A DNA stretch of 64,000 nt from Amycolatopsis thermophila (GTDB taxonomy: Bacteria > Actinomycetota > Actinomycetes > Mycobacteriales > Pseudonocardiaceae), in the NCBI RefSeq assembly GCF_030814215.1, contig NZ_JAUSUT010000001.1, forward strand, positions 4,960,001 through 5,024,000, in the 5' to 3' direction. Under the pieces are notes generated by a model. The model did not search any database and was not told where the DNA came from. It was given only the letters and a program-made list of their open reading frames with translations. The number at the start of each line of letters is the position of its first letter. Within the stretch, counting starts at the first letter, position 1. The translations under genes and the position numbers were made by a program. Positions 35,196 to 39,533 of the stretch are shown here, in pieces.

Positions 35196-36608
35196 TCAGC
35201 GTCGGGGCACCTTGATCCCGTACTGCGCGATCTTGCGGTAGACCGTCGCGCGGCTCATGCCGAGCATCGACGCCACCTGCGCGGCCGTCGTGCCCGGTCT
35301 GGTCAGGCAGCGCACGATCTCGTCGCGCTCCACGGCCTCCATGCGCGTCAGCCGCCGTCCGGGGCTGGTGAACACCTCGCCCGGCAGGTGGCGGGTGTCC
35401 ACGACGTCGGCGCGCCACACCGCCTCCCGTACCACCTGGCGCAGCTGGCGGACGTTGCCGGGCCACGGGTAGGCGGTCAGCGCGCGTGACGCCGCCGGCG
35501 TGAACGTCACCGCGCGCCCACGGCTTTCGTGCGCGAAGTGCCCCGCCAGGGGGAGGACGTCGTCAGGCCGGTACCGCAGCGCCGGAACCTCGACGACGGT
35601 GTCGATCAACGTGCGCAGCGCCTCCGGGATGCCGGCGTGGTCGGCGGCCGTCAGGACGAACGAACCGCGCGCGGAGGTGAACAACTGCGCGAGCTGCTCG
35701 GCCGCGTAGGCCGGCAACGCGTCGGTACCCGACACGATCACGCAGGTGTCGTCCTTGCCGACCTCCGGGGTCCACAGGGCGAGCCACGACTCCGCGTCCG
35801 CGGGCGCGGGCGGTCGCGCGTTGAGGATGCGTTCCCGCGGCCGCAGCGCCCGCCGCGCCGTGGACGCCAGCACCGCTTTGCCCGAACCGGGTTCGCCGGT
35901 CACGCACACCACCCGCCCGCGCTCCATCGCTTCGCGGGCCTCGGCGAGCGCGTCGGCCCAGCCGCGGGAGAGGCCGGCCGAGACGTCGGGGAGCCGCTCG
36001 GCGTAGACGTGGTACACCTCGCCGCGCGGCACCGGCGTGGTGGGGTGGCCGTGGGAGCGGGCGAGCATGAGCGCCGCGGTGTTGCCCGCGGCGGACTGGG
36101 CGAGCGCGAGCAGCAGTTCCTTCGACGATTTCGACCACGTGGTCAGGTTGACGCTGCCGACGAGCCGGTTCGTGCCCGGTTCGACCACCGGCGCGGCGGC
36201 GCAGGTGTAGCCCCACAGGCCGGTGCAGTAGTGCTCCTCGGCGCTCACCAGCGACGGTGCGCGGTCGGCGAGCGCGAGACCGAGGCCGTTGGTGCCGGCG
36301 TCACGCTCGGCGTAGGAGAAGCCGGGAGCGAGGTGGACGCGGTCGAGCGACCGGGTGATGCCGGTGTCGTCGCACAGCCGGCTCAGCACGAGACCGTCAC
36401 TGTCGGTCAGCATCAGGCTGATCGGCTCGTTGGCCAGGGTGGTGTGCAGGCCGCGCAGGACCTCCTGGCCGCATTCGAAGAACAGCGAGTCGTGGTCGAC
36501 GGTCCCGGTGAACGCCGGCCGGACCGTCTCCGGGGACACGCCGTACTGCCGGCTGCGCTGCCAGGACGCGGCCAGCCGGGGCGGCAGGACCGCGCGCTCG
36601 TCCACCAT
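35196..36608 (-). CDS. AcoR/MimR-type enhancer-binding activator (GAF-AAA-Fis)
   Basis: A 470-residue regulator with a GAF-like sensor domain (about 60-180), a AAA+ region (about 215-385; Walker A GEPGSGK, and YPWPGNVRQLRQVV), and a C-terminal Fis-type HTH (TTAAQVASMLGMSRATVYRKI). The GAFTGA loop that contacts sigma54 is missing and the AAA core is degenerate, fitting actinobacterial AcoR/MimR proteins that work without sigma54. ATG 36608 follows GGGAGG. It is divergent from the amidohydrolase-DUF59-ADH operon, and the palindrome at 36685-36699 lies between; activation of that operon is the probable function. Confidence 0.84.
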   Translation of the reverse strand: MVDERAVLPPRLAASWQRSRQYGVSPETVRPAFTGTVDHDSLFFECGQEVLRGLHTTLANEPISLMLTDSDGLVLSRLCDDTGITRSLDRVHLAPGFSYAERDAGTNGLGLALADRAPSLVSAEEHYCTGLWGYTCAAAPVVEPGTNRLVGSVNLTTWSKSSKELLLALAQSAAGNTAALMLARSHGHPTTPVPRGEVYHVYAERLPDVSAGLSRGWADALAEAREAMERGRVVCVTGEPGSGKAVLASTARRALRPRERILNARPPAPADAESWLALWTPEVGKDDTCVIVSGTDALPAYAAEQLAQLFTSARGSFVLTAADHAGIPEALRTLIDTVVEVPALRYRPDDVLPLAGHFAHESRGRAVTFTPAASRALTAYPWPGNVRQLRQVVREAVWRADVVDTRHLPGEVFTSPGRRLTRMEAVERDEIVRCLTRPGTTAAQVASMLGMSRATVYRKIAQYGIKVPRR

Positions 36609-36684
36609 GGCGACCTCCCGTCCGCGTCGTCGCGTGGTCCCGGCGACGTTACCCCGCGCACGCCGCCGGACCGGTTCTCCGACT

Positions 36685-36699
36685 GTCTCATATTGAGAC
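36685..36699. promoter_or_regulatory. palindromic upstream activating site
   Basis: GTCTCA-TAT-TGAGAC is a perfect 6-3-6 palindrome in the 176-bp gap between the regulator (start 36608) and the amidohydrolase gene (start 36785). TGTCTCA/TGAGACA-like inverted repeats are the type bound by AcoR-family activators. Confidence 0.6.
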
Positions 36700-36784
36700 T
36701 CGCCGCGGCCCCGTCCAGGCGTGCGGCTACCTACCGTCACCGGTGCACGTGCCACGGTCGCCACGTCGGAAGGAACCCGGACTG

Positions 36785-37801
36785 ATGTACACCAAGGACG
36801 GCGAAAGCTACTTCATCGTCGACGCCCACATCGCCCTGTGGGACGCGCGCCCGGAGAACCAGCGCAACATCCACGGCAAGCAGTTCATCGACTGCTTCTA
36901 CGACTACCACCGCAACCTCAGCCCCGAATCCGAGGTCTGGCCCTACGAGGACTACCTCTACCAGGGCGGCGCGCGCCTGATGAAGGACCTCTTCGAGGAC
37001 GGCTACGTCGACCACGCCATCTTCCAGCCCGCGCACCTGGGCGCCTTCTACCACAACGGTTTCGGTCAGACCGAGGAGGCGTTCGCGCTCGCGCGGGCCA
37101 ACCCGGACAAGCTGACCTACAACCACTGCTGGGACCCGCGCCTGGAACAGGCCGGGCTGGACCAGCTGCGCCGCGACGCGGAACGGTTCGGGCTCAAGGG
37201 CGCCAAGCTCTACACCGCCGAATGGCACGGCGACTCGCGAGGGTACAAACTGGACGATCCGTGGTCCTACCGGTACCTGGAAGCCGCACAGGAACTGGGT
37301 ATCCGCAACATCCACATCCACAAGGGACCGACGATCCGGCCGCTGGACCGCGACGCCTTCGACGTCGCCGACGTGGACAAGGTCGCCACCGACTTCCCCG
37401 AGATGAACTTCGTCGTGGAGCACTGCGGTCTGCCGCGCCTGGAGGACTTCTGCTGGATCGCCACGCAGGAGCCCAACGTGCACGCCGGGCTCGCCGTCGC
37501 GATCCCGTTCATCCACACCCGGCCGCGGTACTTCGCGCAGATCATCGGCGAGCTGCTGTACTGGCTCGACGAGAACCGGATCCAGTTCTCCAGCGACTAC
37601 GCCCTGTGGACGCCGCGCTGGCTGATCGAGCGGTTCGTCGACTTCCAGATCCCCGAGGACATGACCGAGTACGCGCCGCTGACCACCGCGCAGAAGAAGA
37701 AGATCCTCGGACTGAACACGGCCGCGATGTACGACATCGAAGTCCCGGCGGAGCTGCGGCTGCCGCGCGAGGAACCGCAGGCCGCGGCGGTGGCGCGATG
37801 A
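36785..37801 (+). CDS. amidohydrolase family protein (ACMSD-like), mim/prm-accessory type
   Basis: A 338-residue TIM-barrel amidohydrolase, first gene of a three-gene operon. Metal-site strands are recognisable: FIVDAHIALWD at the start, NIHIHKGPTI, FVVEHCGL and FSSDYALWT. The canonical HxH of strand 1 is reduced to His15-x-Ala17, so the metal site may be altered. Homologous genes accompany propane/acetone monooxygenase operons (mim, prm) next to a DUF59 protein and an alcohol dehydrogenase, the same order as here. A role in maturing the monooxygenase or in processing its product has been proposed only by context. ATG follows GGAAGGA. Confidence 0.8.
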   Translation: MYTKDGESYFIVDAHIALWDARPENQRNIHGKQFIDCFYDYHRNLSPESEVWPYEDYLYQGGARLMKDLFEDGYVDHAIFQPAHLGAFYHNGFGQTEEAFALARANPDKLTYNHCWDPRLEQAGLDQLRRDAERFGLKGAKLYTAEWHGDSRGYKLDDPWSYRYLEAAQELGIRNIHIHKGPTIRPLDRDAFDVADVDKVATDFPEMNFVVEHCGLPRLEDFCWIATQEPNVHAGLAVAIPFIHTRPRYFAQIIGELLYWLDENRIQFSSDYALWTPRWLIERFVDFQIPEDMTEYAPLTTAQKKKILGLNTAAMYDIEVPAELRLPREEPQAAAVAR

Positions 37802-38511
37802 TCACCGAAGCACAGGCTCGGTCGGCGCTGGACGCGGTGATCGACCCCGAACTGGACGAGCCCATCACCGATCTCGGGTTCGTGCGGTCGCTGGAGGTGT
37901 CCGGCGCCTCGGTGACGGTGCACCTGCGGCTGCCGACGTCGTTCTGCTCGCCCAACTTCGCCTACCTGATGGCCTCCGACGCGAAGGACGCCCTGTCGGC
38001 GCTGCCCGGCGCGGGCGAGGTGGCGGTGTTCCTCGACGACCACCACGACTCGGACCTCATCAACCGCGGCCTGGCCGCCGACGCCGGGTACCGCGGCACG
38101 TTCGGCGACGAGGCGGAGGACAGCCTGGCGGACCTGCGCGCGATCTTCCGCCGCAAGGCCCACACCGCGGCGATGGAACGCGTGCTCACCGCGTTGCTGC
38201 GGGCGAACCGCGAACTGCGCGAGGAGGACCTGCACGACGTCGTCCTCGGCGACCTGCCGCCCGGTGCGGCCACCGCCGCGCTGCTGCGGCGGCGCGAGGC
38301 GCTCGGGCTGGACACCGCGCCGTCCGCGTTCGTGCTCGTCGACGACGACGGGAACCGGTATCCGCGCTCGGAGGTCCCGCTGCGGTTGCGGTTCGCGCGG
38401 TCCATCCGCATCTCGATCGACGGCAATTCCCACTTCTGCCGCGGCCTGCTCCGGACGCGCTACCCGGAGTCCGCGGCCGACCAGTCACCCGTGAAGGAGA
38501 AGGTGTCGTGA
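37798..38511 (+). CDS. DUF59/MIP18-type metal-sulfur cluster assembly protein with C-terminal extension
   Basis: A 237-residue protein. The N-terminal 90 residues are a DUF59 domain (VIDPELDEPITDLGFVRSLEV, conserved Cys in LPTSFCSPNFAYLMASDA), the fold that delivers iron or Fe-S clusters in SufT and MIP18. About 140 further residues contain FVLVDDDGNRYPRSEVPLRLRFARSIRISIDG and have no family I recognise. It is coupled by ATGA and GTGA overlaps to the amidohydrolase and alcohol dehydrogenase genes. In mim/prm loci this gene is a candidate factor for loading the diiron monooxygenase. Confidence 0.8.
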   Translation: MITEAQARSALDAVIDPELDEPITDLGFVRSLEVSGASVTVHLRLPTSFCSPNFAYLMASDAKDALSALPGAGEVAVFLDDHHDSDLINRGLAADAGYRGTFGDEAEDSLADLRAIFRRKAHTAAMERVLTALLRANRELREEDLHDVVLGDLPPGAATAALLRRREALGLDTAPSAFVLVDDDGNRYPRSEVPLRLRFARSIRISIDGNSHFCRGLLRTRYPESAADQSPVKEKVS

Positions 38512-39533
38512 AGGCAGTCCAGGTCGTGGGGTACCACGAGAACCTGCGCATGACCGAGGTGCCGCAGCCGCAGGTCACCGGCCCGTTCGACGTGATCGTG
38601 CGGATCGGCGGCGCCGGGGTGTGCCGCACCGACATCCACATCCTGGAAGGGCAGTGGGCGCAGAAGTCCGGTGTCACCCTGCCGTACACGATCGGTCACG
38701 AGAACGCCGGATGGGTGCACGCCGTCGGCAGCGCCGTCACCAACGTGGCCGAGGGCGACAAGGTGATCGTGCACCCGCTGATCACCTGCGGCCTGTGCCG
38801 GGCCTGCCGGTCGGGTGACGACGTGCACTGCTCGGCGAGCCAGTTCCCGGGCATCGACACCCACGGCGGCTACGCGGAGTACCTGAAGACGTCGGCCCGC
38901 AGCGTGGTGCGGATCGACGACGCGCTGGAACCGGCGGACGTCGCGGCCCTGGCCGACGCGGGGCTGACCGCCTACCACGCGGCGGCGAAGGCGGCGCGCC
39001 GGCTGCGGCCGGGGGACCGGTGCGTGGTGATCGGCGCGGGCGGGCTCGGGCACATCGGCATCCAGGTGCTGAAGGCGCTGACGGCGGCCGAGCTGGTGGT
39101 GGTGGACCGCAACCCGGACGCGGTCGAGCTGGCCGTGTCGATCGGCGCCGACCACGGGGTCGTCGCCCAGGGGCGGCACGTCGAGGAGGTGCTGGACCTG
39201 ACCGGCGGCGCCGGGGCCGAGGTCGTGCTGGACTTCGTCGGCGAGGGCGGCGCCACCCGCGACGGCGTCGCGATGCTGCGCCGGGCTGGCGACTACCACG
39301 TGGTCGGGTACGGGGAGAACATCGACGTGCCGACCATCGACATCATCTCCACGGAGATCAACTTCATCGGCAACCTGGTCGGGTCGTACACGGACCTGTG
39401 CGAGCTGATGGTGCTGGCGGCGCAGGGCAGGGTGCGGCTGCACACGACGAAGTACCCGCTGGAGGGGTTCCAGGACGCGCTCGACGACCTCGGCGCCGGG
39501 CGGATCCGGGGGCGGGCGATCCTCACGCCGTGA
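38508..39533 (+). CDS. zinc-dependent alcohol dehydrogenase
   Basis: A 341-residue MDR-family alcohol dehydrogenase. Catalytic zinc ligands are in GVCRTDIH and GHENAGWV; structural zinc Cys residues are in CGLCRACRSGDDVHC. NAD(P) binding is at VVIGAGGLGHIGIQ. In propane/acetone loci the equivalent enzyme oxidises 2-propanol or similar secondary alcohols; that substrate is inferred here. GTG at 38508 overlaps the previous stop, making it the last gene of the amidohydrolase operon. The hairpin at 39541-39586 follows. Confidence 0.88.
   Translation: MKAVQVVGYHENLRMTEVPQPQVTGPFDVIVRIGGAGVCRTDIHILEGQWAQKSGVTLPYTIGHENAGWVHAVGSAVTNVAEGDKVIVHPLITCGLCRACRSGDDVHCSASQFPGIDTHGGYAEYLKTSARSVVRIDDALEPADVAALADAGLTAYHAAAKAARRLRPGDRCVVIGAGGLGHIGIQVLKALTAAELVVVDRNPDAVELAVSIGADHGVVAQGRHVEEVLDLTGGAGAEVVLDFVGEGGATRDGVAMLRRAGDYHVVGYGENIDVPTIDIISTEINFIGNLVGSYTDLCELMVLAAQGRVRLHTTKYPLEGFQDALDDLGAGRIRGRAILTP

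Follow-up and report, generated by a model that had tools for sequence, protein, structure and literature searches.

Propane/acetone monooxygenase clusters of the mim/prm type (mimABCD/prmABCD, for a soluble di-iron monooxygenase of group 5, known from Mycobacterium, Gordonia and Rhodococcus) contain more than the oxygenase itself. According to the accessible text of two reports, the downstream genes encode, in this order, a metal-dependent hydrolase, a 'metal-sulfur cluster biosynthetic enzyme' and an alcohol dehydrogenase (ADH); a Fis-family regulator gene is divergent from the operon, and an ABM gene has also been described (PMC4428276, PMC6849523). Concerning the amidohydrolase-like and DUF59 proteins of these clusters, we found no assigned role in the literature searched. 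Here we describe a locus of Amycolatopsis thermophila with the downstream gene order and divergent regulator of the mim/prm clusters, but without the oxygenase subunits, the reductase, the coupling protein and GroEL. It lies in a stretch of 64,000 nucleotides (the window; positions 4,960,001-5,024,000 of a single-contig genome of 7,315,124 bp). We refer to the locus as the cassette and to its amidohydrolase, DUF59 and ADH genes as the triad. In window positions, its features are the following.

35196..36608, minus strand: predicted MimR-type activator; GAF domain, P-loop domain without GAFTGA, AAA lid and Fis-type helix-turn-helix (HTH).
36685..36699, between the activator and amidohydrolase genes, some 100 bp before the start of the latter: palindrome GTCTCATATTGAGAC, a likely operator.
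36785..37801, plus strand: amidohydrolase-like protein (PF04909, 163 bits); HxA replaces the HxH metal motif (DAHIALWD).
37798..38511, plus strand: DUF59 protein (PF01883, 64 bits); N-terminal domain, followed by some 125 residues that form a helical C-terminal extension.
38508..39533, plus strand: Zn-dependent medium-chain ADH (PF08240/PF00107).

An earlier note on this DNA had proposed an activator gene divergent from amidohydrolase, DUF59 and ADH genes, and domain matches confirmed all four. It had also described one coupled operon, which is correct, since consecutive triad genes overlap by four bases (ATGA, GTGA) and the ADH start codon overlaps the DUF59 stop codon. The activator open reading frame spans 35196-36764 on the minus strand, with a GTG at its upstream limit (36764); we consider the ATG at 36608 the most likely start, because the palindrome then stays outside the gene. 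Among the window genes read, no oxygenase or GroEL/chaperonin gene adjoins the cassette. When synteny was compared in related genomes, as the note had suggested, the amidohydrolase was found at 88% identity or more in 13 of the 19 genomes of the genus, our strain included, and in all 12 other carriers the loci read held activator, amidohydrolase, DUF59 and ADH genes together. Because the same unit recurs in this way, the four-gene arrangement is beyond chance. We consider the cassette to be a paralogue of the accessory part of mim/prm clusters that works autonomously and independently of the oxygenase, with the ADH as its core and under a MimR-type activator, and would put the probability of this reading at about 0.53.

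The earlier note had asked for a full-genome search for the oxygenase and a further GroEL. As a result of this search, four PF02332 matches were found, forming two alpha/beta pairs, one about 0.3 Mb to each side of the cassette (at 4.69 Mb and 5.32 Mb). Of four Cpn60 genes, two lie inside these oxygenase clusters and none at the cassette. Each cluster consists of a divergent activator gene and genes for a large oxygenase subunit, a reductase, a small subunit and an MmoB-type coupling protein; downstream follow, in both, amidohydrolase, DUF59 and ADH genes and then GroEL. Their mim/prm-type label is based on PF02332, reductase and MmoB matches and the published gene order, the coupling protein giving a Pfam MmoB match in one cluster (L006) and being recognised by eye in the other (L005). 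The description of the cassette as monooxygenase-free thus stands, with no oxygenase linked to it on the single contig. The statement that neither oxygenase nor chaperonin is present holds at the locus and fails genome-wide, where two full clusters have their own triad, activator and GroEL.

The three proteins are clearly related to the triads of these mim/prm-type clusters, a relationship on which the note had made its proposal depend. Identities of the amidohydrolase, DUF59 and ADH proteins were 74, 60 and 79% to the 5.32-Mb cluster and 53, 46 and 68% to the 4.69-Mb cluster. The cassette activator is of the same GAF/Fis type as the activators of the oxygenase clusters, with 35-40% identity over their parts. 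Since both clusters own full triads, and with these identities to the cassette, the latter is a third paralogous set rather than the missing part of a split cluster. In Mycobacterium sp. AT1, as far as the accessible text of PMC6849523 describes it, three of the four downstream genes, namely the first ones, are separated from the oxygenase, much like the cassette. The AT1 oxygenase cluster itself is described as having no triad, whereas here the oxygenase clusters keep theirs and the cassette is an extra copy.

We then consider carriers beyond the genus. An amidohydrolase match at 84% identity or more was present in 94 of 390 genomes of the family (in 92 of them the match covered 325 residues or more; G321, with a partial match, and G015, with its deletion, make up the rest; the list was compiled by hand). 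These carriers were classed by identity, and linkage was inspected in a minority. In 36 of the 94 there was no match to the PF02332 oxygenase, bearing in mind that absence in drafts is no proof; the PF02332-free carriers include single-contig genomes given as 99-100% complete (G105, G116, G129, G331 and G373). The other 58 do hold a PF02332 oxygenase, and in one genome, G350, a second copy is spaced from PF02332 as in a cluster, judging from coordinates only. A scan of named genomes gave at least 577 stretches encoding an amidohydrolase relative of any class, of which the best 80 were used. These came from Amycolatopsis, Prauserella, Lentzea, Pseudonocardia, Saccharopolyspora, Streptomyces, Nocardia, Nocardioides, Kribbella, Geodermatophilus, Agreia and others. 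Of these 80 loci, 45 were chosen for a whole-genome PF02332 search, which covered 44 genomes and gave no match in 36, or in 32 of 39 after removal of the five that by coordinates also belong to the 94 family carriers (L100, L117, L143, L145 and L147). In two of the eight genomes with PF02332, both of Nocardia, the locus (L129, L136) is a true oxygenase cluster that holds a cassette-type amidohydrolase.

With no PF02332 match in these 36 of 94 and 32 of 39 carriers, the triad does not need the oxygenase, and since the helper genes often occur without it, they probably have a job of their own. The neighbours of 90 loci were also clustered; this set left out L086, L109, L118 and L119, four of the 80 named loci that duplicate loci of the genus. 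After the four cassette genes, the largest neighbour families were ABM (28), an antisense artefact of DUF59 (19) and a short-chain dehydrogenase/reductase (SDR; 11). No oxygenase family stood out, and a dedicated neighbouring oxygenase was rejected. The earlier note had left it between service to a monooxygenase elsewhere and an independent system. A third, differently tuned copy could indeed support the two oxygenases of this genome in trans, for example by clearing alcohol or ketone products, and the palindrome common to all three loci, the 58 family carriers with an oxygenase and the separated triad reported for strain AT1 are consistent with this. On the other hand, both oxygenase clusters already hold a full triad and GroEL, and in the carriers without a PF02332 match no such partner to serve was found. 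We therefore regard a role in trans as unlikely, though deserving serious attention, and the evidence favours the independent system.

The triad behaves as a unit. We compared 123 triad sites chosen through the amidohydrolase, so that lone DUF59 or ADH genes fall outside their scope; L086, L109, L118, L119 and L092 (a near-copy of L091) were left out. At 118 of the sites all three genes were present; they followed one order or the other of two, whether or not the site had an oxygenase. Thus the three genes, a few exceptions aside, form a unit, while oxygenase and GroEL come and go. In an ADH tree of 118 rows (quick search, midpoint root), 84 of the 87 stand-alone copies with the cassette gene order formed one clade (SH-aLRT 89), which has no oxygenase-linked members and spans several actinobacterial families. 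It is sister to 11 triads of the 5.32-Mb type (SH-aLRT 99), and further oxygenase-linked lineages lie outside. The label stand-alone or oxygenase-linked changes three times in the amidohydrolase tree and twice in the DUF59 tree; in all these trees L213 counts as oxygenase-linked. Outside the main clade fell the stand-alone ADHs of L056, L153 and L165. In the last two (L153:6266-7285, Kineococcus; L165:10851-11873, Geodermatophilus) the amidohydrolase and DUF59 proteins group with other cassettes, and the dehydrogenase appears to have been replaced. There is also a second stand-alone class, L202-L209 (eight places in the family; e.g. L202:7894-10603), with the order ADH-amidohydrolase-DUF59 and an intact HxH. 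No oxygenase gene was present in the 18 kb read around each of them. The palindrome was searched in three genomes of this class: none was found in G058 and G370, and G263 had one site, elsewhere.

The amidohydrolase-like protein (PF04909) was modelled with AlphaFold2 (pLDDT 90) as a TIM-barrel-type fold. The best fold match was 3irs, an uncharacterised TIM barrel, followed by 5-carboxyvanillate decarboxylases, the LigJ hydratase and dihydroxybenzoate decarboxylases; no solved chain matched the protein by sequence. Residues H15, H179, H213 and D271 were invariant in 25 sequences. The HxH metal motif of strand 1 was not found in the cassette protein or in the best 80 of the at least 577 named loci, where HxA stands in 80 of 80; among the oxygenase-linked copies, in contrast, HxH was present in 18 of 23 and HxA in 5 of 23. 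We rejected HxA as a mark of the stand-alone class, since it occurs in these five oxygenase-linked copies and since all eight stand-alone copies of the order ADH-amidohydrolase-DUF59, as well as L056, have HxH. Some decarboxylases of the amidohydrolase superfamily are also without the second histidine, and HxA therefore need not mean a dead enzyme.

The DUF59 protein was likewise modelled with a pLDDT of 90. Its first part, with the PF01883 domain and its conserved cysteine, matches DUF59 structures and CIAO2B, and the helical C-terminal part gave no convincing structure match. C50 and C214 were invariant in 25 aligned sequences. Against the equivalog models SUF_assoc and PaaD, the protein scored far below the cut-offs. 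For the ADH, the best solved relative was 1h2b, followed by ADH-A, a secondary-alcohol dehydrogenase of Rhodococcus ruber, and by variants of it. A widespread natural setting with the dehydrogenase and free of the oxygenase makes the role of the amidohydrolase-like and DUF59 proteins directly testable.

The position of the cassette dehydrogenases next to oxygenase-linked triads raised the possibility of a decaying remnant, left when a duplicated mim/prm cluster lost its oxygenase and chaperonin genes. The missing metal-motif histidine, and a copy in G015 whose amidohydrolase (L055:9080-9922) is without about 53 internal residues (about 178-230, two conserved histidines among them), would fit such decay. 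Both pieces of the G015 protein lie in one 310-codon open frame, which led us to reject a frameshift; the copy may be an in-frame deletion or an assembly fault, and the ADH match of this genome extends to the end of the stretch read. Ratios of nonsynonymous to synonymous substitution rates (dN/dS; Nei-Gojobori script, against relatives of the genus, four in the case of the activator) were 0.11-0.18 for the amidohydrolase, 0.17-0.24 for DUF59, 0.09-0.13 for the ADH and 0.16-0.23 for the activator, compared with 0.07-0.16 for the triad of the 5.32-Mb-type cluster. With 0.09-0.24 for the triad, the cassette genes are under purifying selection. Moreover, the four-gene unit is kept in 13 of 19 genomes of the genus, one dehydrogenase clade extends across several actinobacterial families, the palindrome is retained together with the activator, and HxA, being present in oxygenase-linked copies as well, is no sign of decay. 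A remnant of duplication was rejected on the selection and conservation data, and we consider it very improbable.

The activator gene gave GAF, AAA-lid and Fis-HTH matches and no match to PF00158. The string GAFTG was absent from all 90 upstream regions and from the regulators of L005 and L006, and no strict sigma-54 element (TGGCA-N6/7-TTGC) was found in 67 operator regions, so that dependence on sigma-54 is not supported. By its domain make-up, we class the protein as a putative activator of the MimR type (GAF-Fis, sigma-54-independent). The AcoR/DhaR-type GAF-Fis activators also have GAF, AAA lid and Fis HTH, but the cassette activator differs from them in having no PF00158 match, GAFTG or strict sigma-54 element. 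Its best NCBIfam match was DhaR, with 115 bits far below the cut-off of 551; AcoR is presumably an activator of the same type.

Within the window alone, the palindrome between the divergent genes is unremarkable: when one mismatch is allowed there is a single match, and such a match also turns up in 11 of 100 shuffles. In the 7.3-Mb genome, however, the exact GTCTCANNNTGAGAC occurs at five places, all at the cassette or the two oxygenase clusters: two before the 4.69-Mb cluster, one before the cassette, one before the 5.32-Mb cluster and one 1.2 kb beyond the GroEL gene of the latter. A reversed control pattern gave no place in this genome. In 15 genomes, GTCTCANNNTGAGAC was found at 36 places and the control at one. 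Counted from coordinates, 30 of the 36 are at cassettes or oxygenase clusters (within 1.2 kb); the remaining six comprise one before an SDR gene, one before a GPR1/FUN34/YaaH transporter gene and four unexplained places. G007 and G015, without a PF02332 match, have the palindrome at the cassette only, and the copy at the G161 cassette has one mismatch. The accessory and regulatory half of the mim/prm clusters also exists by itself, in many genomes and with the palindrome of the full clusters.

Across the 90 loci, a palindrome with at most one mismatch lay within 250 bp in 73 of 73 loci with the activator and in 2 of 17 without it (Fisher p 3e-15, relatedness ignored); 67 of the 90 had an exact copy. 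Nine Streptomyces loci (L114, L115, L127, L131, L135, L151, L158, L162 and L163), with an SDR gene in front and mostly an ABM gene behind, have neither an activator of the window type nor the palindrome. Nine loci have a different regulator, about 607 residues long; we take them to be the same nine, and in these cassettes the regulator has apparently been replaced. In four further Streptomyces loci (L121, L122, L123 and L137) a full activator is missing, L121 giving a match of 48 residues, and L121-L123 have the palindrome with one or two mismatches; these loci look as if the switch were being lost. The counts, together with the nine loci without both, show that palindrome and activator go together, and from this co-variation we infer that the palindrome is the operator bound by the activator. 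According to the accessible text of PMC4428276, the -35 boxes of prmA and of smoA are overlapped by conserved palindromes, and that of prmA is compared there with the Fis site of E. coli. From this description, the prmA palindrome may be the same element as GTCTCANNNTGAGAC. We found no description of a stand-alone triad family, or of the palindrome as its operator, in the literature searched, with most subscription journals outside it.

Some places of the palindrome lie away from cassettes. In G003, about 28 kb from an oxygenase cluster of that genome, it stands upstream of a gene for a GPR1/FUN34/YaaH-type transporter (L225:5898-6590), a relative of which directly follows GroEL in L005 (15339-16031). 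In a wider set of genomes, three related ones, G105, G129 and G156 (L218:6687, L222:6353, L224:6344), have it in one common and apparently unrelated neighbourhood by an rRNA methyltransferase-like gene, where it may be a coincidence within coding sequence or a real target. In G105, which has no PF02332 match, it also separates another gene for a GAF-Fis-type activator from a VOC-like gene (L217:4600-8389), with a luciferase-like monooxygenase gene after the VOC-like gene; this is possibly a further branch of the palindrome regulon.

Clues to the substrate come from the SDR and ABM genes and from published induction. In five genomes without PF02332 (G105, G116, G124, G156 and G161), the palindrome is found 89-90 bp before the start codon of an SDR gene. 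The G156 copy, the one scanned, matched the acetoin reductase/2,3-butanediol dehydrogenase model TIGR02415 with 310.3 bits against a cut-off of 304.35, and its best solved relatives were a diacetyl reductase, butanediol dehydrogenases and an acetoin reductase. The same SDR (68-92% identity) is near the cassette in 14 named loci (L088, L114-L117, L126, L127, L131, L135, L138, L151, L158, L162 and L163), so that it is tied to the cassette by neighbourhood or palindrome in other genera. An ABM gene is located just beyond the ADH gene in 28 of the 90 loci by clustering (PF03992 in the G156 copy). It is also near the GroEL end in five of the eight 5.32-Mb-type clusters of the genus that were read (L057, L058, L060, L062 and L063) and was not found there in L006, L059 and L061. 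As to induction, the accessible text of PMC7176365 reports that a Mim cluster is strongly induced on acetone and 2-hydroxyisobutyrate in proteomics, lists the ADH and amidohydrolase-like protein of that cluster, and proposes conversion of acetone to acetol and methylglyoxal. Taken together, SDR, ABM and induction point to small alcohols, ketones and acyloins, which for the window would be an extrapolation.

Based on these results, the autonomous cassette could work as follows. The divergent GAF/Fis activator would sense a small alcohol, ketone or acyloin, bind GTCTCANNNTGAGAC about 100 bp upstream, as the co-variation suggests, and switch on the coupled operon. The three triad proteins would act together, as their constant company implies, with the ADH as catalytic core oxidizing a C3-C4 secondary alcohol or alpha-hydroxyketone; candidates are 2-propanol, acetol and acetoin/2,3-butanediol. 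The DUF59 and amidohydrolase-like proteins would serve the ADH pathway, by metal loading or by handling of a dicarbonyl product, and not an oxygenase. We can also imagine, as a conjecture that we hold to be somewhat more likely wrong than right, that in mim/prm clusters neither the amidohydrolase-like nor the DUF59 protein is an oxygenase factor at all. With the ADH they would form an ancient three-protein system for alcohol, acyloin or dicarbonyl metabolism. Oxygenase clusters would have gained this system along with a chaperonin, and many actinobacteria would use it by itself under the same operator, in most cases with the metal site of the amidohydrolase rebuilt for a non-hydrolytic task. 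The common palindrome gives a testable regulon, with oxygenase clusters, stand-alone triads, SDR and ABM genes and a YaaH-type transporter in one genome, which would bear on gaseous-alkane, acetone and possibly acetoin metabolism in actinobacteria.

Several observations weigh against an autonomous cassette built around the ADH, among them the limit on absence in draft genomes given above. The substrate clue comes from other genera, since at E<=1e-80 the SDR had a match in 6 of 17 genomes but none of the nine from the genus, our strain included, gave one, and since ABM had no match in the window; a universal acetoin role is not supported in this genus. Furthermore, 17 of the 90 loci are without this activator, and in L099, L164, L200 and L201 a separate oxygenase cluster lies next to the cassette. 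In the amidohydrolase tree, two oxygenase-linked Nocardia proteins fall inside the stand-alone clade (support 82), so that the two settings exchange genes; the clusters concerned (L129:4505-13409 and L136:4484-13261) are chimaeric, with an amidohydrolase of the stand-alone clade and DUF59 and ADH proteins that are not. Finally, L105, L142 and L146 have activator, amidohydrolase and DUF59 genes and no dehydrogenase, although sequence follows. Because these sites are not at contig ends, the dehydrogenase is not indispensable to the unit, which makes the autonomous reading slightly weaker and slightly strengthens another one, the maturation of a metal centre. Here the DUF59 and amidohydrolase-like proteins would insert metal into a client elsewhere, and the dehydrogenase would be incidental. 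Besides the three sites, the match of the DUF59 N-terminal domain to CIAO2B of the cytosolic Fe-S assembly complex and to other DUF59 structures, and the two invariant cysteines, agree with such a function. Taking into account that the dehydrogenase is present at 118 of 123 sites, in two gene orders, and that two of the other five (L125 and L154) stop at a contig end, we find metal-centre maturation, which the earlier note had also considered, unlikely.

Around the cassette, the genes as named by eye are PHP/polymerase-X-like and DinB-like upstream and DUF5709-like and ClpP-like downstream. The unit occupies two genomic settings in the genus: seven genomes, that of the window included, have one or more of the searched flanking genes in common, and six show none of them.

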